Below, piece by piece: positions 285 to 22,464 of a DNA stretch of 25,636 bases. How positions within the stretch are numbered: position 1 is the first letter of the stretch; every line of letters starts with the position of its first letter. The notes beneath the pieces are model-generated. The model was not told the origin of the DNA. It saw only the letters and a program-made list of their open reading frames with translations, and searched no databases. This DNA comes from a virus, in IMG/VR virus record IMGVR_UViG_3300028129_001008, positions 1-25,636 of that record. One strand, written 5' to 3'. The position numbers were made by a program, and so were the translations under genes.

Positions 285-716
285 ATGGAAAAGTTATATA
301 CATTAAAACCAGAAGTGTTAAAGTATGTAAATACTGAATGTAGATCAGAAGGTACATTAGAATATTGGAAAAGTACTATATATAAAGAGTGTGCTTTAGA
401 AGAAATTAAGCAACCTCTTGTGTTGTCTAAACAAATTAATATAGAAATACATCCTGAAGAAAAAGAACTGACGTGGGATGATTCTATAGAATATTGTAAA
501 AATTTAAGTGAAGGTTGGAGGTTACCTACTATACAAGAATTATGGTACATTTCTGAAGATTGTAATTTAAAAAAAGAATTTAGTCATAAAGACTATTGGA
601 GTAGTACGGAGGACGCCAGCCTCTACCTCGCGTGGCTCTTCTCCTTCCTCAATGGGAGTGCCTCCAGCTACGATAAGGACTACGCCTACTATGTGCGTGC
701 AGTTAGAGATATATGA
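285..716 (+). CDS. DUF1566/C-type-lectin-like protein, probable DGR target
   Basis: 143-aa protein. Residues about 60-140 match the DUF1566/Lcl C-terminal, FGE-like C-type lectin fold: LTWDDSIEYCKNL (about 64-76), GWRLPTIQELWYI (about 79-91), YWSSTE (about 104-109) and a closing YYVRAVR (135-141). These blocks are typical of displayed variable proteins of gut Bacteroidetes and their phages. Between YWSSTE and YVRAVR the DNA changes sharply to about 58% GC with nearly all codons ending in C, as expected of a DGR variable region copied from an AAC-rich template. Residues 1-60 match nothing I recognise and may be an anchoring or assembly segment. There is no signal peptide, so it is likely a virion or intracellular binding protein. 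No tail genes lie nearby. Start: ATG after an A/T-rich leader; stop TGA. Confidence 0.82.
   Translation: MEKLYTLKPEVLKYVNTECRSEGTLEYWKSTIYKECALEEIKQPLVLSKQINIEIHPEEKELTWDDSIEYCKNLSEGWRLPTIQELWYISEDCNLKKEFSHKDYWSSTEDASLYLAWLFSFLNGSASSYDKDYAYYVRAVRDI
606..704 (+). other. Candidate DGR variable region (VR)
   Basis: About 99 nt at the 3' end of the lectin-like gene, 57 of 99 bases G or C, in a window near 30% GC. Of the 26 codons at 612-689, 19 end in C (GAC, GCC, CTC, TAC, TCC, TTC, AGC). That is the set reached by changing the two adenines of AAC template codons. Interspersed invariant codons (GCG TGG, AAT GGG, AAG) and the closing TAT GTG CGT GCA fit the conserved scaffold of Bacteroidetes DGR lectin targets. 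No second copy (template repeat) and no reverse transcriptase were noticed in the window. Confidence 0.75.
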
Positions 717-728
717 ATAAATAAGACC

Positions 729-920
729 ATGAACAGTTATAAATTAAATAGTATTATAGCAGGTGCTACAAGATATTCTATTTGTAAATTTTTAGGAATA
801 GAACATGCTGCTATATACAAAGAAGTAAAAAGTATTACACCAACTGGTATAGTAACTACTAAGGATAATAAGAAGTATCAAATAACATTAGAACATATTA
901 AAACAAAAAGAGAATTATGA
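729..920 (+). CDS. Small hypothetical protein (63 aa)
   Basis: Starts 12 nt after the lectin-like gene. Its stop overlaps the next start as ATGA, indicating translational coupling with the secreted protein downstream. Residues 15-35 (RYSICKFLGIEHAAIYKEVKS) are helical and the rest is beta-like (TGIVTTKDNKKYQITLEHI), compatible with a tiny regulator, but no family is recognised. It is too short, and not helical enough, to be the DGR accessory protein Avd. Confidence 0.55.
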   Translation: MNSYKLNSIIAGATRYSICKFLGIEHAAIYKEVKSITPTGIVTTKDNKKYQITLEHIKTKREL

Positions 921-1300
921 AAAAAATATTAACTATACTTTTAATACTATGTAGTCTAAATAGTGTATCACAAAGTAGATTAGGTTTTACTTATGATGAA
1001 ATATATAATGAATTTCCTGATAAAGTAACAAATTTTGAATTCAGACAGAATATACTGCTCAAATTTGAATTTTTTGAATTATATCATGTATTTGATAAAA
1101 ATGGTTATTGTTACTTATCTACAGTATTTGTCTCAGATGTAAAATCAGCTCAGTATTTTATAAACAAATATAATACTGAAATGGTGACTATATCAAAAGG
1201 TAATTGGGCATTTGTAGCAGAAGGTTTCAATATATATTGTGAACAAACATATTCAGAAGAAATTGATCGGGTAATGTTTATTTGGAAATATGATCAATAA
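917..1300 (+). CDS. Secreted hypothetical protein with N-terminal signal peptide
   Basis: 127 aa. The N-terminus is a classic signal peptide: MKK, a hydrophobic core ILTILLILC, then polar NSVSQS. A signal peptidase I site near residues 17-19 is likely; the Cys at residue 12 lacks the small residue before it that a lipobox needs. The mature part (LGFTYDEIYNEFPD, then YINKYN-like and YSEEIDRVMFIWKYDQ) is mixed alpha/beta and resembles small secreted proteins of Bacteroidetes, without a named family. Coupled by an ATGA overlap to the preceding small gene. A phage-encoded exported protein would act in the periplasm or cell envelope, for example in lysis timing or superinfection immunity; this role is inference. 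Confidence 0.62.
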   Translation: MKKILTILLILCSLNSVSQSRLGFTYDEIYNEFPDKVTNFEFRQNILLKFEFFELYHVFDKNGYCYLSTVFVSDVKSAQYFINKYNTEMVTISKGNWAFVAEGFNIYCEQTYSEEIDRVMFIWKYDQ

Positions 1301-1323
1301 GTTAAACTTAATATAGTATTAAA

Positions 1324-2565
1324 ATGAAAAATCAATTAATATTTAGTAATAATGGTATATTATCAGAAATTGATATTACTACTATGGGAGATTCAGTAAA
1401 AAAAACCGATGATTCTAAAATAGGTCAATTTGACTCAGGATTAAAGTATGCAGTAGCTATACTATTAAGAAATAATGTGGAATTTTACATTGAGTCTGGT
1501 AATAACATATACAAATTTGATAAAGTTGTTAAAGTAGACCCTATTACAGGTAAACAAAAAACATTAATTCAAGTAATAAATACAGATTTTTCTGATGAAG
1601 GATCACATGTTACAACTAGAACTACAACAGCATTTGCTGTTAATTTAGGTTATGACTGGGAGTTTTGGATGGCTATCAGAGAATTATATAGCAATTGCTT
1701 AGATGAAAATGGTGTTGTAGAAGAAACTTATAACTATAACTATGATACAAAAATTGTGATCAAAATTAATGATGCTATTCAAAATGTACTTGATAATTTT
1801 AATAATTATTTCTTCAAAGGTGAGTATATCTATAGTACTGATAAAATTAAAATAGCTCGTAATGAGTTACCTGGACAACCTTTTACAATTTACAAGAATG
1901 GTATTCAAGTGTATTCAAATCCTAATAGAAAGTCTAAGTATGTATATGACCACATGTTAGCAGAATTAGATGAAATGCGTGTTATACGTAACAGAAGTTC
2001 ATCAGAAATACAAATATCGTATGCTATACGTGAGTGTAATGATGTATCATTTATTATGGATTTTCTTAATAATTATGACCATGAGCTACATGATTCAAGA
2101 TTATGTGGGTACGGTAATTTTTCTGATGAATGGGTTAGTGTAGTCAATAGCATGTACAACAATGAAACTTTACCTGCTATACATTCAGAAATGTTTGATG
2201 ACATAACTGCTGATTCTCGTTTTAGAATAGGGAAGAAAAGGTTAAGTGAATCTGAACATTGGCTCAGTAACAAAATAGAAATAAATATTGTTACTCCTAA
2301 TTTAAGTGTTCCTGTTGAATTATCATTTGAAGCATCTGTTATACAAATAGCTAAAGAGAGTGGTATAGAAGTATTATTTCCTGTATTTGAAGCATCTATT
2401 AATTCATCTACACAAGTAGTTGCTGATATGGATGACATGTGTTTATACATAAACAGTACGTTCTCTAAAGATGATTTATGGCAACTCTTGAAAGAAATAT
2501 ACAGGTTGGAAAAAAAAGAAAATTCTCAAATCTGGAAAGATTATGTGAAATTGTTAAATAAATAA
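1324..2565 (+). CDS. Putative GHKL/HATPase-like ATP-binding protein
   Basis: 413 aa with no obvious named family. Two stretches resemble GHKL ATPase boxes. SKIGQFDSGLKYA (about 31-43) looks like the G2 loop (GxFGxGxK) of Hsp90/MutL/histidine-kinase-type ATPases. AIRELYSNCLDE (about 117-128) looks like the N box (ELxxNxxDE) that holds Mg-ATP. Their order is reversed from canonical GHKL proteins, so either one match is fortuitous or the fold is permuted. The C-terminal half (about 200-413) is unassigned and ends in a Lys/Glu-rich helix. It stands alone, with 23 nt before it and the HNH gene after it. Codon use matches the flanks. Confidence 0.5.
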   Translation: MKNQLIFSNNGILSEIDITTMGDSVKKTDDSKIGQFDSGLKYAVAILLRNNVEFYIESGNNIYKFDKVVKVDPITGKQKTLIQVINTDFSDEGSHVTTRTTTAFAVNLGYDWEFWMAIRELYSNCLDENGVVEETYNYNYDTKIVIKINDAIQNVLDNFNNYFFKGEYIYSTDKIKIARNELPGQPFTIYKNGIQVYSNPNRKSKYVYDHMLAELDEMRVIRNRSSSEIQISYAIRECNDVSFIMDFLNNYDHELHDSRLCGYGNFSDEWVSVVNSMYNNETLPAIHSEMFDDITADSRFRIGKKRLSESEHWLSNKIEINIVTPNLSVPVELSFEASVIQIAKESGIEVLFPVFEASINSSTQVVADMDDMCLYINSTFSKDDLWQLLKEIYRLEKKENSQIWKDYVKLLNK

Positions 2566-2575
2566 AATATAAAAT

Positions 2576-2920
2576 ATCAATAAAGGTCAGTTCATAAAAG
2601 GAAATAAACCTTGGAATAAAGGTTTAAAAGGTTTAAGAGTATCTCCTAAAACAGAATTTAAGAAAGATCAATTTGTAGGTAAAAATCATCCAAGCTGGAA
2701 AGGTGGTGTACAAAACAATAAAAAAGATTGTGTACATTTGTGGGATAGTAAAAACAAAAGGAAACGTAGACCTAGACACATATGGGAAAAAGCAAATGGT
2801 ATTATCCCTAAAGGTTATGTCATCTTCCATATTGATGGAAATAAACATAATGATAACCTTTCCAATCTAAAAGCTATTTCCAGATTAGAACTTTTAAAAC
2901 ATAATAGAAATGAAAAATAA
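2576..2920 (+). CDS. HNH homing-type endonuclease; start codon apparently lost (ATC)
   Basis: The frame is open from 2573. Residues after 2576 read INKGQFIKGNKPWNKG, then PKTEFKK, NHPSWKGG, and an HNH core RHIWEKANG, IPKGYVIFHIDGNKHNDN, LSNLKAIS. This is the layout of small phage HNH (HNH_3-type) endonucleases, which usually begin with M just before KGQF-like residues. At that place there is ATC, not ATG. The first ATG (2738) would remove the N-terminal DNA-binding half and leave a 60-aa HNH core. Either ATC is used as a rare start, or the gene is inactivated by a single start-codon change. The catalytic His/Asn residues (HIDGN, NL) are intact. It overlaps the lipoprotein gene by 11 nt. Free-standing homing endonucleases are common selfish genes in phages. 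Confidence 0.7.
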   Translation: MNKGQFIKGNKPWNKGLKGLRVSPKTEFKKDQFVGKNHPSWKGGVQNNKKDCVHLWDSKNKRKRRPRHIWEKANGIIPKGYVIFHIDGNKHNDNLSNLKAISRLELLKHNRNEK

Positions 2921-3035
2921 AATAATATTATTAGTATCACTACTTTTTATACTTGCTTCATGTATATCTCAAAAAGAAATTTATAACACTTATACAAAAG
3001 GTGGTCCTGTAATATTTAAAAACCAAATAAAATGA
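2910..3035 (+). CDS. Small lipoprotein (41 aa)
   Basis: ATG at 2910 lies inside the end of the HNH frame, and the TGA at 3033 overlaps the helicase start (ATGA). The protein opens MKNKIILLVSLLFILASC: a basic start, a hydrophobic core and a textbook lipobox LASC with the lipidated Cys at residue 18. Only about 23 residues follow (ISQKEIYNTY, then KGGPVIF). A membrane-anchored micro-lipoprotein is expected, facing the periplasm. In phages such proteins often serve superinfection exclusion or lysis; no homolog is recognised, so that role is inference. The perfect lipobox and tight packing support a real gene. Confidence 0.68.
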   Translation: MKNKIILLVSLLFILASCISQKEIYNTYTKGGPVIFKNQIK

Positions 3036-4129
3036 CAAGAGAAGAAATTCAGGAAGCAGCACTAAAGGCTGTAAAAGGGAAATCAAAAGCTGGTTTAGCA
3101 TTAGCAACAGGTGTTGGTAAAACACTTGTTGGTTTAAAACATTTAGAACAACATTTAGAAATAGGAACTCGTGTTTTATTAGTAGGACCAAAAAAAGCAA
3201 TATATAAATCATGGATTAATGAAGCTGCAAAATTTAATAAAACACATTTAATGAACAGTGTTCATTTTGTTACGTATTTAAGTTTAACTAAAACAAATCC
3301 TAAAGATTTTGACATAGTATATTTAGATGAAGCACATAGTTTATTAGATTCACATAAAGAGTTTTTAGAAAATTATAATGGTCTTATATTAGGTTTAACA
3401 GGAACGCCTCCTAAAAATAAAATGAGTGAAAAAGGAATCTTGATGAATCAATATTATCCTATTCAATATGAATATTTAACGGATGATGCTATAAATGACG
3501 GAATACTTAATAACTATAAAATTATAGTACACGAGTTAAAATTAGATAACGTAAACAAAAATGTAGAATCAGGTAAACATAAAAAGTTTTATACTACTGA
3601 ATTAGCAAATTATAATTATTGGACAAACAGATTAGAAAATGCAAATTATGGTAAGGAATCTACAATTTGCAGAATAATGAGAATGAAAGCAATGATGGGA
3701 TACAAATCAAAAGAAAAGTATACTCAAAAACTTATTCAAGCTATTAAATCTAAAACTATCATATTTGCTAATACACAAGACCAAGCTGAAAGATTATGTA
3801 AACATAGTTATCATAGTGAAAATCCAAAATCTGATGAAAACTTAGAAAAGTTTCAATCAGGTGAAGTAAAGCTTTTGTCTTGTGTTTTACAATTAAGTGA
3901 AGGTATAAACATATTTGAATTAAGACAAGGTGTAATACTTCATGCTTATGGTAATGAAAGAAAAGCTGCTCAAAGAATTGGTAGATGTTTACGTCTCAAT
4001 CCTGATGAAACAGCAATGATACACATACTTTGTTATAAAGGTACAGTAGATGAAAAATGGGTTGTTGATGCATTATCAACGTTTGATCAAACAAAAATAG
4101 AATGGAAAAATTATAATATAACATTATGA
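3032..4129 (+). CDS. SF2 DNA helicase (DEAH-box, UvsW/Rad25-like)
   Basis: 365-aa superfamily 2 helicase with compact domains. Motif I/Walker A ATGVGKT (25-31), Ia-like LLVGPKKAIYKSW (about 49-61), motif II DEAH (99-102), motif III TGTPP (123-127), motif IV-like KTIIFANTQDQAERL, motif V QLSEGINIF, and motif VI QRIGRCLR (314-321) with its arginine fingers. No accessory domain is visible. The likely role is ATP-driven DNA unwinding or branch migration in replication and recombination. Its start overlaps the lipoprotein stop and its stop overlaps the next start (ATGA on both sides), implying coupled translation. Confidence 0.92.
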   Translation: MTREEIQEAALKAVKGKSKAGLALATGVGKTLVGLKHLEQHLEIGTRVLLVGPKKAIYKSWINEAAKFNKTHLMNSVHFVTYLSLTKTNPKDFDIVYLDEAHSLLDSHKEFLENYNGLILGLTGTPPKNKMSEKGILMNQYYPIQYEYLTDDAINDGILNNYKIIVHELKLDNVNKNVESGKHKKFYTTELANYNYWTNRLENANYGKESTICRIMRMKAMMGYKSKEKYTQKLIQAIKSKTIIFANTQDQAERLCKHSYHSENPKSDENLEKFQSGEVKLLSCVLQLSEGINIFELRQGVILHAYGNERKAAQRIGRCLRLNPDETAMIHILCYKGTVDEKWVVDALSTFDQTKIEWKNYNITL

Positions 4130-4638
4130 CAAAAGAATACAACAACAATCTTTTCTTACTTAGAGGTTTTGTAAAATTATCAAGCGTTATTAATGATATT
4201 GATGACTTACAAGACATGTCAAAATATGGAAAGTTAATAAAAAAAGAACTTAACATTTTCCAAGATTGGGTTGAAGATTACATGAAAGGTCCTTTAAACA
4301 GTTTTGGAAAAGTTGACATAACTTGTTTATATGATCTTATAGTAAAATTTGATAATCTTGAAAATTCTATATTTATTGAAAATGAGTATAAAACTAAAGT
4401 CAATCTTGTATATGCAAAAATGATGTCTGCTCTTAATGATCTAAATAAATTAGAACATGAGTTCAAAAGTTATGTGTATAAATTAATAGTTAAACTTGAA
4501 AGATTTAAATCATCTAAATTTATAGTATCAGAAACTTTGTTTATTGATAAACATGGTAATACTATTCAAAAAATTGTAGATGTTATTGATGAAATGGGAA
4601 TGAAAATATTATTTGATCCTAAGACAAAAATTGACTAA
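4126..4638 (+). CDS. Hypothetical helical protein (170 aa)
   Basis: Coupled by ATGA to the SF2 helicase. It is predominantly alpha-helical with long amphipathic stretches (about 75-135, ending LERFKSS), followed by a C-terminal segment with beta character (FIVSETLFIDKHGNTIQKIVDVIDE). There are no catalytic signatures. The position suggests a replication-associated accessory factor, but nothing in the sequence fixes a function. Confidence 0.65.
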   Translation: MTKEYNNNLFLLRGFVKLSSVINDIDDLQDMSKYGKLIKKELNIFQDWVEDYMKGPLNSFGKVDITCLYDLIVKFDNLENSIFIENEYKTKVNLVYAKMMSALNDLNKLEHEFKSYVYKLIVKLERFKSSKFIVSETLFIDKHGNTIQKIVDVIDEMGMKILFDPKTKID

Positions 4639-4650
4639 ATTAGAATAAAA

Positions 4651-4899
4651 ATGGTTTTGGAAAAAACACACGATTTAACACTTTTAAATGATAACACAAA
4701 TGATATGCTATATGTAATGGCTTGTGTTATCAAAATATGTAAGATGGAAGCTCTTCAAGCAGAACAATGTGTAATGCTAGCACATTATAAAAAAAGTTAT
4801 AAGATTGCTTCCGGTGATTTTGATAACATTTTTGAAATGCATAAAGATTTATCTGATTTAAACATAAATTCAGAAATAAATGAAATTAGTCTGTATTAA
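4651..4899 (+). CDS. clpS: ClpS-like N-degron adaptor
   Basis: 82 aa, close to the ClpS core domain length. It aligns by eye to the Bacteroidetes ClpS pattern: LLNDNTND (11-18) for the ligand-binding LxNDDxNT loop, VIKICKMEALQAEQCVMLAHYK (26-47) for the VCxHTAEQAEQCALIVHYKG helix, then GDFDNIFEMHKDLSDLNI (55-72). The Asn13, Asp14 and His45 equivalents of the residues that hold the alpha-amino group of N-degrons are kept. ClpS passes N-degron substrates to ClpAP (or ClpC-type) protease, so the protein could redirect host proteolysis or protect phage proteins. The usual extended N-terminal tail that controls delivery is almost absent (about 8 residues). It overlaps the next gene by 20 nt. Confidence 0.78.
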   Translation: MVLEKTHDLTLLNDNTNDMLYVMACVIKICKMEALQAEQCVMLAHYKKSYKIASGDFDNIFEMHKDLSDLNINSEINEISLY

Positions 4900-5140
4900 T
4901 GATTCAAATAAGCCTGATAAAATACCCTTAGAAGACTGGCCTAAAAAAAACAGTTTTTACACTCCTATTAAGATTGTAAGAATGGGTATACAAAAAGACA
5001 AATATGGGGTGTTATTAAAAGAAATAAATTTAAAACCTTCAGCTTTCCCTTATGAATATTATGATCTTGCAAGGTTTAGTCCTCATGATGAAGAAGATAA
5101 TATTTTAAAAGAATTAGAAGAGCTGGAATTAACTATATAA
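4880..5140 (+). CDS. Conserved small phage protein of unknown function (86 aa)
   Basis: Starts MKLVCINDSNKPDKIPLEDW and continues to SAFPYEYYDLARFSP and an acidic tail (EEDNILKELEELE). This VCINDSNKP ... FPYEYF ... RF pattern recurs in small proteins of Bacteroidetes phages and prophages, as far as I recognise. It has a beta-rich, SH3-like appearance and no catalytic motif. The start lies within the 3' end of the ClpS-like gene, pointing to coupled expression. Confidence 0.7.
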   Translation: MKLVCINDSNKPDKIPLEDWPKKNSFYTPIKIVRMGIQKDKYGVLLKEINLKPSAFPYEYYDLARFSPHDEEDNILKELEELELTI

Positions 5141-5142
5141 CT

Positions 5143-5619
5143 ATGAGTTATGAAAGTCTAGATATATTTAATTATATTGAGGAAAAACTTAAAATTCAAA
5201 AAACAAGGAAAAGAGTATATTTAGAAAAAAGAAATTATCTAATATATATATTATATCATAAGTTCTTTTATACAGAAGAAGTTTTAGCTGAATATTTTCA
5301 AATTGATCATTCTTCAATAAATTATGTAAAAAGAACTTTTAATGATTTATTAACTTTTCCTACTTCTGGATTTAAAGAAAATCTTAAAGAGTTATTTATA
5401 TTATTCCCTATTGATTTTGAACATCGTATTGTGACAAACAAAATTAAGTTAAAATCTCACATAAACATTAAAAATATTGGTGTTCTACAAAAATTTAGAG
5501 AATACTGTGAAATAACTGAAACTCAACCTACTGAAGTTATTGATGGTTTATTAGATAAAGTTTTAACAGCTGAATTAAAAAAATTAAAAGTAAAACAAAA
5601 AAAGGAAAATAATGGGTAG
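5143..5619 (+). CDS. DnaA domain IV-like DNA-binding protein
   Basis: 158 aa. Residues 29-66 follow the DnaA C-terminal helix-turn-helix: KRNYLIYILYHKFFYTEEVLAEYF, then IDHSSINYVKR, where DHSSI (55-59) occupies the place of the DnaA signature DHTT(V/I). The AAA+ part of DnaA is absent. A second helical element near the C-terminus (about 112-150) and a Lys-rich tail could add DNA contacts. It may bind specific sites as an initiator, or act as a repressor or decoy for DnaA boxes. It starts 2 nt after the preceding stop and its end overlaps the next gene by 8 nt. Confidence 0.62.
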   Translation: MSYESLDIFNYIEEKLKIQKTRKRVYLEKRNYLIYILYHKFFYTEEVLAEYFQIDHSSINYVKRTFNDLLTFPTSGFKENLKELFILFPIDFEHRIVTNKIKLKSHINIKNIGVLQKFREYCEITETQPTEVIDGLLDKVLTAELKKLKVKQKKENNG

Positions 5620-5830
5620 AGTAAAAGAATTATATTTTAATATTATTCAAGAATATGGATCAGTTGATCAAATACCTGAAGGTTTAACAATATCTGAATT
5701 TTTATCAATTATAAATAAAAAAAAGACAAATGAAGCTTTGGAAAATGAGATTGTATCAACTAGGTTTACTAATGGTATTCATAATAATTTATGTGATGCC
5801 TCCAATAGTAGGAATAATATTGTTCATTAA
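5612..5830 (+). CDS. Hypothetical protein (72 aa)
   Basis: Begins inside the last codons of the DnaA-like gene. Residues 1-35 (VKELYFNIIQEYGSVDQIPEGLTISEFLSII) look helical and folded; the C-terminal half is Asn-rich and low in complexity (NGIHNNLCDASNSRNNIVH). No family is recognised. The overlapping arrangement supports translation from a common message. Confidence 0.5.
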   Translation: MGRVKELYFNIIQEYGSVDQIPEGLTISEFLSIINKKKTNEALENEIVSTRFTNGIHNNLCDASNSRNNIVH

Positions 5831-5841
5831 TTTTATGAAAA

Positions 5842-5997
5842 ATGTATAATACACAATTAAAAGTAAGAGTAGGTGATAAAATAACACCTGTAATGAAACA
5901 AAAAAATAAGTTACGTAAGAAAATATTTTTAAAGAATATTTTCATCTTAAAAAAAGAAAAACTGACAACATATCATAATAACCCTGAATTTGATTAA
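5842..5997 (+). CDS. Small basic protein (51 aa)
   Basis: An ATG after an A-rich leader opens a 51-aa frame ending at TAA, 2 nt before the next ATG. The product is very basic in the middle (MKQKNKLRKKIFLKN) and begins with a short beta-like stretch (LKVRVGDKITPV). It fills the gap between two genes exactly and matches their spacing, which is the main support. Function unknown; nucleic acid binding is possible from charge alone. Confidence 0.5.
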   Translation: MYNTQLKVRVGDKITPVMKQKNKLRKKIFLKNIFILKKEKLTTYHNNPEFD

Positions 5998-5999
5998 TA

Positions 6000-6251
6000 A
6001 TGACGGAAACTGAAATGATAGATGCAGGCTTTGAAAAAGTCCTTGTAACTAAAGAAGACTCTGGTAATGATAATGATTATTATTTTTACAGAATTTTGAT
6101 TAATAATACAATTTTAATCAGTAGTGATGAAAGTGATATGGTAAAAAATAATGATTATCACTTACATATATATGAATTAAATATTATAATAAAATTAATA
6201 GAAGACTATAATACTTTTATTGATTTCATTAAAAAATTAGTTAAAAAATAA
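6000..6251 (+). CDS. Conserved small phage protein of unknown function (83 aa)
   Basis: Acidic N-terminal half (AGFEKVLVTKEDSGNDNDYYFYRI) and a helical C-terminus (LIEDYNTFIDFIKKLVKK). The GF..VTKE..........FY pattern also appears in the broken frame at 22567-22753, so the two appear to be paralogs, one intact and one decayed. No enzymatic motif is visible. Confidence 0.62.
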   Translation: MTETEMIDAGFEKVLVTKEDSGNDNDYYFYRILINNTILISSDESDMVKNNDYHLHIYELNIIIKLIEDYNTFIDFIKKLVKK

Positions 6252-6270
6252 ACATAAATAATAAAAAAAT

Positions 6271-6657
6271 ATGTTCAATGCAAAATTTATAAAAAAGAAT
6301 GGTAAAATTACTTACCAAGAAGAAAAAGATGGTGTAAAATATAAAACTTTTGTTAATAAGCTCCCAGAAGGTGCTGTAGTTGAAATGTTTATAAGCTTAG
6401 ACACTGAAAAAGGTTCATACGCTCAAATATCAAAAATTCATGCTTCAATACGTGAATTATCTAAAGAATCCGGATACACTTTTGAAGAAATGAAAAAGTT
6501 AGTTAAAGAAAGTGCAGGTTTGTCATTTATAGTGAAGGATGATGGTAAAGATGAACACTTGACAAAATCTTTTGCTGAATGTACTAAAGATGAATTGTCA
6601 AGTGTTATACAATCTTGTATTGAGATTGGTATGAATTACAACCTTAATCTAGGCTAG
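6271..6657 (+). CDS. Hypothetical protein, possibly NinB-like recombination factor
   Basis: 128 aa. After a beta-rich N-terminal part (KFIKKNGKITYQ, LPEGAVVEMFISL) comes KIHASIRELSKESGYTFEEMKKLVKE (about 54-79) and a closing KSFAECTKDELSSVIQSCIEIG (about 104-125). The 'H.xIRELa..tG.t.eE.K..vK ... KS...ls..E...vI' arrangement recalls phage NinB-type and related small recombination proteins; this is a weak, pattern-level match. It ends in TAG and overlaps the minus-strand gene tail-to-tail by 14 nt. Confidence 0.6.
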   Translation: MFNAKFIKKNGKITYQEEKDGVKYKTFVNKLPEGAVVEMFISLDTEKGSYAQISKIHASIRELSKESGYTFEEMKKLVKESAGLSFIVKDDGKDEHLTKSFAECTKDELSSVIQSCIEIGMNYNLNLG

Positions 6658-6967
6658 GTTCTTCATAACCTTCCTCACCTGGTTCAGGAATCTCTTTTTC
6701 CTCATGTAAATCAGGGTCATTGACAGCAATGCTTTCAATTTCAGCAACAGCTAAAGTTATAGTATAAAAAGATCTTTGAAATTGAGTCATCTCTTCATAC
6801 TTTAATTCAGATACTTTTTCAATAGTTGCTACAGCTTCCTCATTAGATGAGATTTTAGATTCTTGTTCTATTAAAAACAATAATGTGTTTTTAAGCATAA
6901 TGTAATATGCTTTGTTAATTTCAATTTTTAACTTAGCGTTATCTTTTAACTCTTTTACCTTTATCAT
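6644..6967 (-). CDS. Hypothetical helical protein (107 aa), only minus-strand gene
   Basis: Starts at ATG 6967 (MIKVKELKDNAKLKIEINKA) and runs leftward. The frame stays open further upstream, but those codons lie across the UDG start and encode UDG on the other strand, so the internal ATG is chosen. The protein has long helices, a segment MTQFQRSFYTITLAVAEIES, and a strongly acidic, Pro-containing C-terminus (EEKEIPEPGEEGYEEPS). No + strand frame covers 6658-6980, which supports this call. It converges with the 6271-6657 gene and diverges from UDG with only 13 nt between starts. Function unknown; the acidic tail suggests protein binding. Confidence 0.72.
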   Translation of the reverse strand: MIKVKELKDNAKLKIEINKAYYIMLKNTLLFLIEQESKISSNEEAVATIEKVSELKYEEMTQFQRSFYTITLAVAEIESIAVNDPDLHEEKEIPEPGEEGYEEPSLD

Positions 6968-6980
6968 AATATTAATTTTT

Positions 6981-7691
6981 ATGAGTGTAAATATAGACAT
7001 AGAAAGTATAAAAGAAAAATTTTTTAAGAAATTAAAGCCTTCAGGTTGGGATAGAGTACTCAGAGGTTTTATATTTAGTAGTGAATTTGATAATATATTA
7101 AAGCATCTTGTTGAAGATGCAAACAATGGAAAAAGATTTACACCAACATTAAAAAAATTATTTAGAGCTTTTGAGGAATGTCCTTATGAAGATTTAAAAG
7201 TTGTATTTGTTGGTCAAGATCCTTATCCTCAAGTTGGTGTTGCTGATGGAATAGCATTTTCTTGTAGTGGGCAAGATAAATTATTACCACCTTTAAATTT
7301 CATTATTGATGAGTTAGAAAGAACTACATTTCCTTCAGGTTATGATAGAAAAGATGACTTAAAAGATTGGAGTAATCAAGGTGTGTTATTACTTAATACG
7401 GCACTAACTGTCACAATTGGTACAGTAACATCTCATCTTAAATTATGGGAACCTTTTATAATTTATTTAATGGATATGTTGAACCATAATAATACAGGTT
7501 TAATATATGTATACTTTGGTAAAAAAGCTGAAGATTGGTGTTCGTATGTTTCTGATGATAACAATTATAAAATAATTCTTAAGCATCCTATAGGTGCTAT
7601 GTATAATAATGGGATGTGGGATTCACAAGATGCTTTTAATAAAATCACAAAAACCCTAAAAGAAAATTACAACTTTAATATGAAATGGTAA
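6981..7691 (+). CDS. ung: Uracil-DNA glycosylase, family 1 (Ung-like)
   Basis: 236 aa from ATG 6981; the frame extends upstream, but those codons are not conserved-looking and lie over the minus-strand gene. Motifs in order: VVFVGQDPYP (74-83, catalytic Asp80), AFSCSG (92-97, uracil-stacking Phe93), LLLNTALTV (136-144, Asn139), KHPIGAMYNNGMW (201-213, His202). It removes uracil from DNA to start base excision repair. Two deviations: the canonical GQDPYH has Pro instead of His, and HPSPLS is rewritten as HPIGAMY, although the His is retained. It overlaps the next gene by 7 nt. Confidence 0.93.
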   Translation: MSVNIDIESIKEKFFKKLKPSGWDRVLRGFIFSSEFDNILKHLVEDANNGKRFTPTLKKLFRAFEECPYEDLKVVFVGQDPYPQVGVADGIAFSCSGQDKLLPPLNFIIDELERTTFPSGYDRKDDLKDWSNQGVLLLNTALTVTIGTVTSHLKLWEPFIIYLMDMLNHNNTGLIYVYFGKKAEDWCSYVSDDNNYKIILKHPIGAMYNNGMWDSQDAFNKITKTLKENYNFNMKW

Positions 7692-8284
7692 TGGATGAAA
7701 TATATAATTTATTTATAAAACAAAAAATAACTCCCAATCAAGTTTATTTATTAAACTGTATAAGAACTAAAGTAACTGCTGTAGAAGGTTTTATTAATAT
7801 AGCTTTAGAAGTTACAAGATTAAGGTCAGATAATTGGTTAGATGAAGAAAATCTTCCAACAGCTAAAGCATTTGCTTTATTAGATGAAATAAATGGGTAT
7901 TTTAAAACAACAAAAAAGAATACATCAAAAAGTTTAATGGGTAACAATTTTAATGAAAAGATAACAGAATATCTAGAAATTTTTCCTAAATTTAAACTTC
8001 CTTCTGGTAAATATGCAAGGTCAAATAAAAAGAATTTAGAGAATAATTTCAGATGGTTTTTTAAAACTTATAGTTTCAGCTGGGATACTGTAATTCAAGC
8101 AACAGTAAGGTATGTAGATGAATACGAGAGAGTAAATTTTAAATACATGAAGACATCTCAATACTTTATCAGAAAACAAAATTTAGATAGAGAATCTGAT
8201 TCAGAATTAGCAAATTATTGTGACATTATAATTAATGGAACAGAAGATGCTGATCAAACTTATTTTAGTGAAAAAGTAGTATAA
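7685..8284 (+). CDS. Hypothetical protein between UDG and replicative helicase
   Basis: 199 aa; ATG at 7685 overlaps the UDG end, and a second ATG at 7691 (TAATG overlap) is equally possible. The N-terminus ITPNQVYLLNCIR and later WLDEENLPTAKAFALLDEINGYF look like winged-helix elements. The central part is basic with aromatic residues (NFRWFFKTYSFSWDTVIQATVRYV). Position directly before the DnaB-type helicase would suit a helicase loader or replication initiator, but no loader motif or ATPase is present, so this is inference from context. Confidence 0.65.
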   Translation: MVMDEIYNLFIKQKITPNQVYLLNCIRTKVTAVEGFINIALEVTRLRSDNWLDEENLPTAKAFALLDEINGYFKTTKKNTSKSLMGNNFNEKITEYLEIFPKFKLPSGKYARSNKKNLENNFRWFFKTYSFSWDTVIQATVRYVDEYERVNFKYMKTSQYFIRKQNLDRESDSELANYCDIIINGTEDADQTYFSEKVV

Positions 8285-8288
8285 ACAT

Positions 8289-8465
8289 ATGCACAAATTT
8301 TATAGGGTATTAATAACTGTTATTACAATAATTGTAGGATATTTTATAGTAAATACTTTTATTCAAAATATATCATTTGTAACATTCTTATTTATAGAAG
8401 TAATTGTTACATGCATGCATATTTTTGGAAATAGTGTATACAAGTATTTTAAAACATGGCATTAA
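8289..8465 (+). CDS. Small membrane protein (58 aa), two TM helices
   Basis: ATG at 8289 to TAA at 8463, overlapping the helicase start by 10 nt. Two hydrophobic segments are separated by a short turn: about residues 7-25 (VLITVITIIVGYFIVN) and 29-46 (SFVTFLFIEVIVTCMHIF). The ends are basic (MHKFYR; YKYFKTWH). This is a small inner-membrane hairpin with no recognised family. It fills the only gap between the 7685 gene and the helicase. Holin-like or membrane-anchoring roles are possible, but its place in the replication block does not favour lysis. Confidence 0.6.
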   Translation: MHKFYRVLITVITIIVGYFIVNTFIQNISFVTFLFIEVIVTCMHIFGNSVYKYFKTWH

Positions 8466-9454
8466 AAAGTAAAAAAAAATGGAATAGTCAAAAAACAGGT
8501 TTTACTGAATCCTTAGTATACTTAAAAGGTAGAATGGAAGGAAACATTAAAAGTCTTTTGACACCTTGGGAAAAGTTTAACGATGCCGGAACAGGTGGTA
8601 TTGAATGGAATACTACCACAGTAATTGGTGGAAGACCTGCTAGTGGTAAAACATTAATTGTAGAACAAATAGTAAGAGAATCTTTTATATTGAATGTGGG
8701 TGAAAACTTTAGAGTTTTACAATTTCAATTTGAAATGCTTGCTAGATCTTCAGCTATTAGAGAATATTCTAGTGTGTTAGGAAAGCCTTACAAGTACTTA
8801 TGTAGTACAGAAGGTAAATTAACACAAGAAGATCTTCAAAGATGCTTTGCATATGCTAAAGAGAAGGTTAAGTTTCCTATTGACATAGTTGAAGAACCAT
8901 GTACAGTAAGAGATTTTGAAAAAACTATTAGGGAATACATGGAAGAGCACTCCAATACTAATAGTGAAGGCGTTAAAACTTTTGTGAAAACTTTAATAAC
9001 AATTGATCACTCATTACTCTTTAAAAAAGATACACATGAGAAAGATAAAAGTGACATGTTGAATAATTTAGGTGAAACATTGACTAAACTAAAAAGGATA
9101 TTTCCTATTTCTTTTATAGTTTTAAGTCAACTTAATAGAAATATTGATCACCCAGATAGAGCTGAAGATGGTAAGTATGGTAACTATGTTTTAGAATCTG
9201 ACATATTTGGTGCTGATGCCTTATTACAGCATGCTGATTTAGTTGTGGGAATAAATAGACCAGCTAAACAGAAAATTAAATTTTATGGTCCTGATAGATT
9301 CATTATTGAAGATATGAATACATTAGTTCTACATTTTTTAAAGTGTAGAAATGGTGATACAAGAATGAGTTTTTTCAAAGCTCAATTTGAAAGAATGTCA
9401 ATAGTTGAAATGGAATCACCGGCAACACAAGAAAGAGGTTTAAAAACAAGATAA
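8456..9454 (+). CDS. DnaB-type (SF4) replicative helicase
   Basis: 332 aa comprising the RecA-like ATPase domain of DnaB with only a short N-terminal lead; the primase-interacting N-terminal domain is missing. Walker A GGRPASGKT (58-66), then FQFEMLARS, Walker B-like LITIDHSLL, sensor-like FIVLSQLNRNID (motif with SQL.R typical of DnaB) and C-terminal LHFLKCRNGDTRMSFF. A hexameric replicative helicase is expected. Starts inside the small membrane protein gene; 1 nt separates it from the next gene. The loader and primase contacts may come from neighbouring unknowns and the 11519 primase. Confidence 0.92.
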   Translation: MALKSKKKWNSQKTGFTESLVYLKGRMEGNIKSLLTPWEKFNDAGTGGIEWNTTTVIGGRPASGKTLIVEQIVRESFILNVGENFRVLQFQFEMLARSSAIREYSSVLGKPYKYLCSTEGKLTQEDLQRCFAYAKEKVKFPIDIVEEPCTVRDFEKTIREYMEEHSNTNSEGVKTFVKTLITIDHSLLFKKDTHEKDKSDMLNNLGETLTKLKRIFPISFIVLSQLNRNIDHPDRAEDGKYGNYVLESDIFGADALLQHADLVVGINRPAKQKIKFYGPDRFIIEDMNTLVLHFLKCRNGDTRMSFFKAQFERMSIVEMESPATQERGLKTR

Positions 9455-9455
9455 A

Positions 9456-10010
9456 ATGGGTATAAGTACAAGTGGTAATGCTAAACCACCTTTCAATAGA
9501 AAAATAGCTACAGCAAATTTATTAAAAGATCAAGCATGGATTTTTGAAAAATTAATGATAAATGATCCGTTATACATTCCTAAGTGTGCATACAGACCTT
9601 ATGGAAAACAAGAATTACACATAGCATTTTTTGAAAGTGAAATCTCAAGAGGTGAAGATATATATACAGAATTTGTAAGTGTTACACTTGAGTCAGAAGA
9701 TCCTGACAGAATATTGTATAAATGGAAATGTAATCCTTTTTATAAAGAAGAATATGATATCACTGAGCCTAATGCTCAAGGGCATGTAAGATACTTAATT
9801 CCTGTATCTGAATTGATAGCAATAAAACCTGAAAAATTCATTACTGAAAAAGAAACTCCTGATGACACAAATGATTTATTTCCTGATTTTGATGCAATGA
9901 TTGATCCTGATACTGACGCACCATTAAGTGCAATGACTGTTAGAGATTTAGCAGCAATCATGTTGAAAAAACCAGTAAGTAATAAAAAATGGTTAAATAA
10001 TTTAATTTAA
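9456..10010 (+). CDS. Hypothetical protein (184 aa) in replication block
   Basis: Follows the helicase by 1 nt. Mixed alpha/beta protein with aromatic-rich N-terminal half (DQAWIFEKLMINDPLYIPKC), an acidic linker (ETPDDTNDLFPDFDAMIDPDTD, about 139-160), and a C-terminal helix (SAMTVRDLAAIMLKKPVSNKKW). No catalytic motif. The acidic linker followed by a terminal helix would suit a protein-interaction adaptor between helicase and the RecA-like ATPase encoded next; inference only. Confidence 0.62.
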   Translation: MGISTSGNAKPPFNRKIATANLLKDQAWIFEKLMINDPLYIPKCAYRPYGKQELHIAFFESEISRGEDIYTEFVSVTLESEDPDRILYKWKCNPFYKEEYDITEPNAQGHVRYLIPVSELIAIKPEKFITEKETPDDTNDLFPDFDAMIDPDTDAPLSAMTVRDLAAIMLKKPVSNKKWLNNLI

Positions 10011-10019
10011 AAGTAAAAA

Positions 10020-10745
10020 ATGGAAATTACACTCCCAAGTAAAAAAGTAAAAGCTGAAAGAGTAAACCCCAAAAGACTGGTAATTTATTCAAAACCTAAA
10101 ACAGGTAAAACAACTGCATTTGCAGGACTTGAAGATAATCTTTTAATAGATTTAGAAAATGGTTCTGATTATGTAGATGCTTTAAAAGTTAAAGCAAATT
10201 CATTAAAAGACTTGATTGCTATTGGCAAAAAGGTAAAAGATGCTGGAAAACCTTATAAATATGTAACTATTGATACTGTTACAGCATTAGAAGAAATGGT
10301 GATGCCTTTAGCAATTGAAAAATATAAATCCACGCCTATGGGTAAGAACTATGATGGTAACAATGTATTAAGTTTACCTAACGGTGCAGGTTATTTATAT
10401 ATCAGAGAAGCTTTCTTTGAAGTATTAAAATTTATAGATAGTTTAGCAGACTGTATTATTTTATCAGGTCATATCAAAGACAAACAAGTTGATGATAAAG
10501 GTGAATTAGTAATGTCTGCAAATATTGATCTTACTGGTAAAATTAAATCATTATTGTGTGCTAATGCAGACGCTATTGGTTATATGTTCAGAAAAAAAAA
10601 TCAAGTGATCATTAATTTTAAAACTAATGATGAAGTTACTTGTGGTGCAAGACCTGAACATTTAAGAAATGCTGAAATAGTTATTTCTGAATCTGATGAT
10701 GAAGGTGTTATCACTACAAATTGGGACAAAATTTATAAAAAATAA
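10020..10745 (+). CDS. RecA-like P-loop ATPase (AAA_24/Sak4-like)
   Basis: 241 aa. Begins with a Lys-rich strand, then Walker A YSKPKTGKTT (23-32), followed by LLIDLENGSDYVD, and Walker B-like YKYVTIDTVTALEEM (about 79-93). LADCIILSGHIKDKQ holds a sensor-like His. This is the layout of phage AAA_24/Sak4 proteins, RecA/Rad51 relatives that assist ssDNA annealing and recombination. It sits directly upstream of the SSB-like gene, which is a usual partner of Sak4. Confidence in the family is high; the recombinase role is inferred. Confidence 0.86.
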   Translation: MEITLPSKKVKAERVNPKRLVIYSKPKTGKTTAFAGLEDNLLIDLENGSDYVDALKVKANSLKDLIAIGKKVKDAGKPYKYVTIDTVTALEEMVMPLAIEKYKSTPMGKNYDGNNVLSLPNGAGYLYIREAFFEVLKFIDSLADCIILSGHIKDKQVDDKGELVMSANIDLTGKIKSLLCANADAIGYMFRKKNQVIINFKTNDEVTCGARPEHLRNAEIVISESDDEGVITTNWDKIYKK

Positions 10746-10771
10746 TTAATTAATTAAATAAAAAAAATAAG

Positions 10772-11452
10772 ATGGCAATTGGAACTAAAGATGTAAAAGG
10801 TGGTGGAACAAGTATTAACAAAACTATCAGTCCAGGTAATTATAAATTAAAAATCAACACTATTGTAGCAGAAGAGTTTAAATTTATTCCTGATGCATTG
10901 AACATATTATTAAATGTTGAGACTGAACCTATAAATGGTTTTGAAGGTTTCTTTATTGATAAAGATAATGAGTCTTTAGGTAGATATTCAGGACAAATTG
11001 GTAGAGTGAAAGCTGGTCAATATGCATTTGCAGATGGTACTACTAAATCAGGTATTGAAATTAATAGAGATAACAGTATTTTAGTATTTATAAAAGCTCT
11101 TTGTACTTCATTAGATATCTTAGATTGGTTTGATGCTCAAGATGAGAAACATGACTCAATTGAAGAATTCATTGAAGCTTTAAATAAAGAGAAACCTTTC
11201 AAAGATAAATTTTTAGATTTTTGTATAGCTGGTAAAGAATATGAAAATAGAGCAGGTTATACAGCTTATGATTTACATTTACCAAAATCGTCTAGAGATG
11301 GTTATGCTTTTTCACAAGTTGACTCAGGTAAAACTTTATTGTTTTCAGAAAGTGCGCATATCAAAAGAAATACTCCTAAAAAAGTAGATAGTTTTGCGTC
11401 TAATAATACAGAATCAGGTACAGCTACAGCTTCAGATTTTGATTTAGATTAA
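10772..11452 (+). CDS. Probable single-stranded DNA-binding protein
   Basis: 226 aa. An extended beta-rich N-terminal two thirds (PGNYKLKINTIVAEEF, LNILLNVETEPI, GRVKAGQYAFADGTTKSGI) is followed by a Ser/Thr/Asn-rich linker (about 205-222) and a terminal acidic tip SDFDLD. A flexible linker ending in an acidic/hydrophobic tip is the hallmark of bacterial and phage SSBs, where it recruits replication partners. Placement between the RecA-like ATPase and primase agrees. OB-fold membership cannot be shown from sequence reading alone. Followed by a strong terminator, as expected for an abundant product. Confidence 0.68.
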   Translation: MAIGTKDVKGGGTSINKTISPGNYKLKINTIVAEEFKFIPDALNILLNVETEPINGFEGFFIDKDNESLGRYSGQIGRVKAGQYAFADGTTKSGIEINRDNSILVFIKALCTSLDILDWFDAQDEKHDSIEEFIEALNKEKPFKDKFLDFCIAGKEYENRAGYTAYDLHLPKSSRDGYAFSQVDSGKTLLFSESAHIKRNTPKKVDSFASNNTESGTATASDFDLD

Positions 11453-20455: not shown

Positions 20456-21595
20456 ATGGCAACGAGAGCAAAAGTAGTAACAAAAGAATTTTTACAAAAT
20501 GTAGCAGCACCTCAACACGCTGATACGTATACAGTAATAACGCATGATTTTGTCATGCAAAACACATTGGAGCAATTAGAAAAGCATGGTTTTTCTGTAG
20601 ATAAGGAAATATATAGAGCAAATGCTGAAGGTACTCTTGCTCAAGGAATGTATTATTTAAAGCACAGTCAAGATGATGACATGGGTATGATGTTTGCTTG
20701 GTCAAACAGTTATGATAAATCTATGAGATTTAGATGTGCAATTGGTGGATATGTATACACTTCATTAAATGGAGTAATTGATGGTGACGTAAACACCTGG
20801 GGACGTAAGCATGTTGGTACTGCAGATCAAGAAACTATTCAAACAATTGTTAGTCAAATTAGTAATGCAGGAAGTTATTTTAATAACTTAATCGCTGATA
20901 AGAATATAATGAAAACTATCATCTTAACTGATAATATGCTCAATAGATTTATTGGAGCTCTTTACTTGAAATATAATATTGTTTCAAATGAACAGATTTC
21001 CATTATTAAGAAAGAGTTGTCCAAGCCTTCTTTTGATTATAATTCTGAAGCAAGATCTCTTTGGAGTGTTTATAACCATGTAGCGTTATCTTTAAAAAGA
21101 TCTCATCCTAGAAATTGGATGGATCACCAAACAAGATTACACATGGTTGTAACTCTTGAATTTAATTTAATTAACTATAAAGCTAAAACTTTAGAAAATA
21201 ATTATGGTGAGCCTGAAAATCAAACTAATCTTTTGACACAAATTGAAGAAGCTGAAGAAGTTAAATCAACTGACATTATAATTGAAGTTGTTAAAGAAGA
21301 GTCTCAAGATAAAGAGTTTGTTGAAGAAAATGTTGAAGAAACTTTAGATACTGTTACTGATAATAGTGATGAAGATAGTCCAAATGACGTTGAAGAAGAT
21401 CTAGTTACTGAAGAAAGTGATAAAGTAGAAGAAGAATTTCTTGATTCCATTGAAGATAATAGTTTTGAAATCTTTATTGATAGCTCAAAACCTCAAGTAG
21501 AAACTGAGCCGGAAACTGAATCAAATGATAACTTTGAATCACTTGATTTTGAAGATAAAGATGAAGAAAATGAGGATTCAGAATTTGAGCTTTGA
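20456..21595 (+). CDS. DUF932-like protein with long acidic tail
   Basis: 379 aa. The folded part (about 1-245) matches the DUF932/phage-plasmid protein pattern: an N-terminal helix, MGMMFAWSNSYDKSMRFRCAIGGYVYTSLNGVI (spread over about 76-108, not contiguous identity) and RKHVGTADQET. From about residue 250 on, it is an extremely Glu/Asp-rich, low-complexity tail ending EDSEFEL. The folded part is typical of phage and plasmid proteins of unknown activity next to replication genes; the tail may be disordered and act as a DNA mimic or bind basic proteins. Its TGA overlaps the next TTG start. Confidence 0.78.
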   Translation: MATRAKVVTKEFLQNVAAPQHADTYTVITHDFVMQNTLEQLEKHGFSVDKEIYRANAEGTLAQGMYYLKHSQDDDMGMMFAWSNSYDKSMRFRCAIGGYVYTSLNGVIDGDVNTWGRKHVGTADQETIQTIVSQISNAGSYFNNLIADKNIMKTIILTDNMLNRFIGALYLKYNIVSNEQISIIKKELSKPSFDYNSEARSLWSVYNHVALSLKRSHPRNWMDHQTRLHMVVTLEFNLINYKAKTLENNYGEPENQTNLLTQIEEAEEVKSTDIIIEVVKEESQDKEFVEENVEETLDTVTDNSDEDSPNDVEEDLVTEESDKVEEEFLDSIEDNSFEIFIDSSKPQVETEPETESNDNFESLDFEDKDEENEDSEFEL

Positions 21596-22464
21596 AAACA
21601 AAAAAAGTAGTCAGAAAAGCTTTAGATATTAAAGAATCTGGTAGAAGTTCAGATTATATAAGTCCTAGTTTTATTTATGAATGTGGTTTTAATTGTGCTT
21701 ACTGTTATGTTAAAAGACATAATGGTAAGTACATTACCATAGCAAAAAATAATGGAGATTTATTATCTGCTATTAATGATCATGTGGCTTGGTTACCTGA
21801 AAAAGAACCTAATCAAACACACCCTTTGTATTACACTTACGATATAGGTTGCAACAGTGATATAGGATTACATTATAAACAAATAAACTGGAAATATATA
21901 TTTGATTTTTTTAAAATGCATCCTAGAGTAATGGGAACTTTTGCTACAAAAACAGTAACAAATGAGTTTTTAAATTACAATCCTGATGGTAAAATAAGAA
22001 TTAGGTTTAGTTTGATGCCTGAGAATATCAGACAGATATTAGAACCTAATACTAGCAATATAGAAGAAAGGTTATATGCAGTAAGGTTATTCCAAGATGC
22101 AGGTTATGATGTTCATCTTAACTTTAGTCCTGTTATATATTATGACAAGTGGTTACAAGACTATAAAGAATTGTTTAATCAAGTTAAAGATATAGCTCAT
22201 AGAGATCATTGGGATTTAGGTAATCCTGTAAAAGCCGAAGTTATTTTTCTTACTCATAATGAAAGTAAACACTTTAAAAACTTAGAAAATAATTTAAAAG
22301 GTGAAGATTTATTGTGGAGTAATAGCATTCAAGAATCTAAAATATCACAATATGGTGGTAAAAATGTAAGGTACAAACACAAACTTAAAAATGAATGGAT
22401 TAATGAGTGGAGAGCATTGCATGACAGAGTAATACCTTGGAACACAATACGTTACATATTTTAA
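21592..22464 (+). CDS. Radical SAM protein, spore photoproduct lyase-like
   Basis: 290 aa, initiated by TTG in a TTGA overlap with the preceding stop; no in-frame ATG occurs before the conserved SPSFIYECGFNC segment. The Cx3Cx2C cluster motif is Cys31, Cys35 and Cys38 (ECGFNCAYCY), which binds the [4Fe-4S] cluster that cleaves S-adenosylmethionine. Further SPL-family blocks: YYTYDIGCNSDIGLHY, FATKTVTNEFL, RIRFSLMPE, EPNTS, DVHLNFSPVIYYD, AEVIFLTHNE, SQYGGKNVRY, and a terminal VIPWNTIRYIF. SPL enzymes reverse the UV-induced spore photoproduct in DNA; whether this homolog repairs DNA photoproducts or another lesion is unproven. Confidence 0.87.
   Translation: MKTKKVVRKALDIKESGRSSDYISPSFIYECGFNCAYCYVKRHNGKYITIAKNNGDLLSAINDHVAWLPEKEPNQTHPLYYTYDIGCNSDIGLHYKQINWKYIFDFFKMHPRVMGTFATKTVTNEFLNYNPDGKIRIRFSLMPENIRQILEPNTSNIEERLYAVRLFQDAGYDVHLNFSPVIYYDKWLQDYKELFNQVKDIAHRDHWDLGNPVKAEVIFLTHNESKHFKNLENNLKGEDLLWSNSIQESKISQYGGKNVRYKHKLKNEWINEWRALHDRVIPWNTIRYIF

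Follow-up and report, generated by a model that had tools for sequence, protein, structure and literature searches.

The window, by which we mean the whole stretch of DNA analysed, is a 25,636-base IMG/VR virus record and represents a fragment of an incomplete genome. Its gene at 285-716 raised the question of how a phage gene built like a DGR target could be diversified when neither a reverse transcriptase (RT) nor a template repeat (TR) accompanies it. The gene, on the plus strand, encodes a standalone Lcl_C/DUF1566 protein of 143 amino acids with a C-type-lectin fold (PF07603, E 6e-14). The AlphaFold model of the protein had a mean pLDDT of 75.5, with values of about 90 for most of the C-terminal domain; the first ~50 residues were mostly without confident modelling. 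The closest PDB structure, and the nearest solved fold, was the Legionella Lcl C-terminal domain (8q4e, E 4e-5), with the N-terminal parts left out of the comparison, and the model also resembled C-type lectins. An earlier note, made from the sequence alone, had described a lectin-fold DUF1566 protein, and this description held. The protein has the build of a DGR target, namely a C-type-lectin-type domain with the variable repeat (VR) at its C-terminus.

The VR block was found at 594-707 (plus strand) by alignment to the TR of a bacterial cassette, L176. It contained a 5' anchor, TATTGGAGTAGTACGGAG (594-611), followed by the mutated core (612-689) and a 3' anchor with the codon AGA (690-707). 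The TATGTGCGTGCAGTT segment at 690-704 of the window differs by 1 base from TATGTGCGTGCGGTT of the bacterial TR and VR and, from its position, is a candidate IMH or 3' homology. A run of six codons was present at 612-629, whereas five are found at this place in the bacterial TR and in the other phages; the extra codon may be a one-codon (AAC) expansion of the template or the result of slippage. As the VR is one codon longer than the L176 TR, the real donor would be a close variant of that TR, unless slippage was responsible. The gene body had a GC of 0.28 and a GC3 of 0.17, whereas the VR block had a GC of 0.57 and a GC3 of 0.86. The G+C peak of the contig was a 99-nt stretch starting at 604 (58/99); outside the block, no such stretch exceeded 42/99. 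The switch to 57/99 G+C, which the earlier note had reported, was confirmed in 606-704 as an outlier for the contig. The 19 of 26 codons ending in C (612-689) were likewise recovered, the best other stop-free run of 26 codons in any frame having 15, and the block does lie between YWSSTE and YYVRAVR. The note had seen no RT and no template repeat, which was true over the full 25.6 kb of the window; no Avd and no second copy of the VR were found there either. L002, a contig obtained independently from this phage, covers 751-10791 (plus strand) at 100% identity and starts 44-47 nt downstream of the VR block. An assembly break could be expected here if the VR varies in the population; the start is at most suggestive of such variation.

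The TR was inferred from the variable columns, and the search pattern TGGAAYYWSAACTTCAACAAYGGSAAY was scanned against 2.9 million viral contigs (91 matches reported) and 84,980 bacterial and archaeal genomes (51 matches). The best of 140 TR candidates was that of L176, with 1 non-A mismatch in the fixed 72-nt stretch of the window, followed by runner-up candidates with 7 non-A mismatches, all of them bacterial; the best viral candidate had 13. L176 had been chosen by a pattern requiring A at ~12 variable positions, not by agreement at other sites. It is a 4.5-kb contig of a Chitinophagaceae MAG (CANNJE010000181.1), and its locus was found to contain a Por_Secre_tail protein, an Lcl_C target, bAvd, the TR, an RVT_1 RT and a TetR gene. 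A complete bacterial cassette (RT, Avd and TR) with a TR fitting the phage VR therefore exists. Over 594-701, the window VR was changed at 23-25 of 43 TR adenines versus 1-2 of 62 non-A positions, the range reflecting where the extra codon is placed. The p value of this adenine bias was 5e-11 to 5e-10 over gap placements within the codon run and 3e-11 in a separate computation. The VR of L176 itself departs from its TR at adenines only, over the same block. In the sister phages L030, L035-L037 and L044, changes were found at 13-21 of 43 TR adenines versus 0-1 of 59 non-A positions.

Window 594-707 is thus, in essence, established as a real DGR variable repeat. The alignment to the L176 TR strongly supports the proposal of the earlier note that a DUF1566 target was rewritten from an AAC-rich template with mutagenesis at the adenines. 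A near-copy with mismatches at template adenines, for which it had looked to the phage genome, was present in the bacterial cassette, the 1-2 non-A positions excepted, but not in the window or the long phage contigs. Only one MAG contained the exact TR, there on a short contig, and among 399 Chitinophagaceae and 299 order-level genomes an L176-type TR was detected only in the known MAG and in one relative with 3 mismatches. A second Chitinophagaceae genome (G147:C14:1481-1528, L251) contained a 3-mismatch TR-like match of the CAG type. The pattern CGGAGNNC..GCGTGG gave 17 matches, none of which had an Lcl_C gene, and these were put down to chance. In the related cassette L199, the RT was 76% identical, and the contig also bears a Competence (ComEC-like) gene; we therefore take the L176 cassette to be cellular.

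The close strains of one phage, L035, L036, L037 and L044, showed a flank divergence of 0.8-4.1% (96-99% identical elsewhere). Their VRs differed at 16-28 of 43 TR adenines versus 1-3 of 65 other positions, where the TR was the bacterial one of L176 and had not been fitted to the strain comparison. Such a pattern marks mutagenic retrohoming from a TR of the L176 sequence, and marks it as recent. The hypervariability is that of these sister strains, not of the window's own population.

With the target protein alone as the query, no close relatives turned up among the viral contigs or in the phage collection. Searching with an alignment gave 18 virus contigs that carried a short standalone Lcl_C gene, exactly one per whole record. 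The VRs examined had an AT-rich body followed by a GC3-rich block (GC3 of 0.68-0.86 in the block versus 0.10-0.35), the codons of which were mostly NNC. Fixed positions told apart two VR subfamilies, STE, which includes the window, and SSE. Every one of the 27 columns with at least 3 bases in the SSE VRs includes A. Differences at codon positions 1, 2 and 3 were 0.33, 0.26 and 0.13 in the SSE VR versus 0.11, 0.06 and 0.23 in the gene body; positions 1 and 2 thus vary most in the VR and position 3 in the gene body. The VR of L034 (3367-3726) looks mosaic, with STE-like ends (ACGGAG, GTGCGTGCGGTT) and SSE-like CAG codons mid-way, and possibly belongs to a third TR type. In L021, a short GC-rich stretch (2280-2400) was present in AT-rich surroundings upstream of the target gene neighbourhood.

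An L176-type VR was found in 22 viral contigs and the TR pattern in none; the TR scan of viral contigs relied on a single exact pattern and would overlook a TR whose first codon is, for instance, TAC. A scan in which every VR base was allowed as template A also found no TR in the viral contigs. The L176-type VR scan fixes many non-A positions and is evidence of occurrence, not of mutation bias, for which the alignments of the window and its sisters to the L176 TR, the strain comparison and the ranked TR candidates are better tests. The 22 contigs were of two kinds, with either the short standalone genes or proteins of 183-324 amino acids with other N-termini. The latter RT-less targets, with VRs of the same TR, were found in L254 (9423-10037), L256, L257, L259, L261, L263, L264 and L266-L271.

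Because the VR is present in 22 viral contigs, the TR in none, and the bacterial TR fits well, diversification in trans by the host is the best explanation. We consider it probable that the target, which lacks an RT of its own, belongs to a crAss-like phage of Bacteroidota and that a chromosomal DGR of the host rewrites it in trans. The VR (594-707) of the gene would be overwritten with mutagenised cDNA, for which the TR RNA, the RT (bRT) and Avd would come from an L176-like chromosomal DGR of the Bacteroidota host and not from the phage. Upon infection, copying of the TR RNA by the host RT would be error-prone at adenines. The resulting cDNA would home into the phage gene via the common flanks TATTGGAGTAGTACGGAG and TATGTGCGTGCGGTT, just as it would into the host's own Lcl_C target. 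Such homing would take place during infection, and the bacterium donating the TR would presumably be the actual host. The wider reading, towards which we lean with less assurance, is that RT-less DGR targets, some associated with the virion and others intracellular, are retained by many aquatic crAss-like phages and match the TRs of chromosomal DGRs in their Bacteroidota hosts. The phages would thereby leave targeted hypermutation to the host, and the host DGR would in turn rewrite phage genes during infection.

Several comparisons bear on the putative crAss-like affiliation. The RecA-like protein of the window (10020-10745) was 49% identical to those of crAss-like phages, and its polymerase had relatives in Vibrio phages and Cellulophaga phi14:2; no structural genes were identified in the window fragment. 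The related contig G021, of 89,418 bases (89.4 kb) with a 127-bp terminal repeat, contained crAss-like terminase, portal and capsid genes; it matched crAss-like capsids and had its terminase and portal families in common with L254. The crAss-like matches in the database comparison include phages of Bacteroides and Flavobacterium hosts. Cultured crAss-like phages infect Bacteroidota. A 5487-aa open frame was present in G021 (L243:2467-18930), and very large proteins are known in crAss-like phages. The target gene of G021 (L245:5684-6187) overlaps a neighbour that resembles window 21592-22464; in the window, 21 kb separate this counterpart from the target gene. A small ORF at 2738-2920 of the window looks, by eye, like an HNH homing endonuclease.

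A complete DGR of the phage's own, or of a co-infecting relative, could also act in trans from an unassembled part of the genome far from the target. The window is a fragment, its 74-kb sister contig G030 is incomplete too, and RT-bearing crAss-like phages are known (PMC7290462, PMC11054128, PMC12386605). However, no RT was found in ~34 target-bearing IMG/VR records, which included contigs of 58, 61, 65, 74, 75, 89, 161 and 180 kb, and no RVT_1 in the 18 contigs with standalone Lcl_C genes (180, 161, 89, 75 and 74 kb among them). HMMs of RT and Avd, built from the TR loci (138 and 94 hits), gave no match in the window or in nine long virus records beyond one Avd-like match at E 0.04, whereas the positive controls gave E<1e-145 and E<1e-44. 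The RT and Avd for which the earlier note had suggested a search were therefore not recovered on the phage side. The long virus records scanned had no TR-compatible copy, as opposed to the 22 viral contigs with a VR. G021, which is closed by its terminal repeat, carries an SSE-type target, and neither an RT nor a VR copy compatible with a template role was found in it; the TR of that subfamily was not found. The earlier view that the element acts from elsewhere in the genome was only partly right: the related long phage contigs had neither RT nor TR, and the matching TR lies in a bacterial DGR. We thus regard a phage-borne DGR as unlikely and the host genome as the most likely place of the element.

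The VR patch could instead have been gained by homologous recombination with an already diversified VR of the host, and not by retrohoming into phage DNA. Imported host VRs would likewise differ at TR adenines only, and the host VR fits the same TR. However, such exchange would have to be limited to ~100 nt with little flank similarity and to have occurred in several phage lineages and two gene architectures; the closely related strains, moreover, all have different VRs, and short flanks suffice for retrohoming. We consider this origin improbable. A relict VR, left to evolve normally after an ancestral complete DGR was lost, is hardly credible: RT loss has been reported in crAss-like DGR cassettes and taken as the end of retrohoming (PMC11054128), but 16-28 TR adenines, and hardly any other positions, separate the near-identical strains, which contradicts a relict, and synonymous non-A positions still equal the bacterial TR despite proteins only 31-40% identical in amino acids to that of the window. 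Both the dead VR and the phage-borne DGR were ranked below a host DGR acting in trans.

With a host DGR as the preferred source of variation, the role of the varied proteins may differ between the two kinds of target. The surroundings of the 285-716 gene were early and replication genes, outside the virion module, and no recognisable virion-type N-terminus was found in the 143-aa protein. For these reasons, the protein may be a variable binder that the phage uses inside the cell, for instance against a host factor that itself varies; a tail receptor-binding protein is less favoured. The selection of host receptors by a hypervariable surface, suggested earlier for this gene, thus found no support. 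In L254, portal, terminase, endolysin and virion genes are found near the target gene, so the longer targets are probably fibre-like, and for them host-surface binding or receptor selection is plausible.

If the host-supplied reading is true, a host element rewriting a phage target would constitute targeted mutagenesis across genomes. It would explain RT-less phage VRs now taken for dead cassettes, such as the RT-less crAss-like cassettes interpreted as inactive (PMC11054128), and the TR sequence would link phages to hosts. The DGR catalogue of Roux et al., which by their own account misses remote targets (PMC8144416), would be an undercount. The locus would also offer a simple system for testing trans homing; the reconstitution of a DGR has been reported (PMC12875486).

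In the DGR literature surveyed, element and target share one genome, in cis or remotely, and no report of a host DGR acting on phage genes was found in the open-access journal literature searched. The cellular DGRs of Bacteroidota (L176, L199 and L157, with a DUF1566/Lcl_C target, bAvd and RT) have the same TR logic, target domain and flanking homology as the window. In these, however, a single chromosomal locus holds target, TR and RT, whereas the window has a phage target without TR or RT. The DGRs of Bordetella BPP-1 and crAss-like phages (PMC7290462, PMC11054128, PMC12386605) likewise have a phage C-type-lectin VR mutated at template adenines; these phages contain their own RT and TR and a tail or receptor-binding target, whereas the window contains neither RT nor TR, and its target lies outside the virion module. 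The remote targets of Treponema denticola (PMC4891356) and Thiohalocapsa PB-PSB1 (PMC10907252) have VRs that match a distant TR at all or nearly all non-adenine sites, and trans activity is the reading given to them. In both of these bacteria donor and target belong to one genome, whereas in the window the target is viral and the donor cellular.
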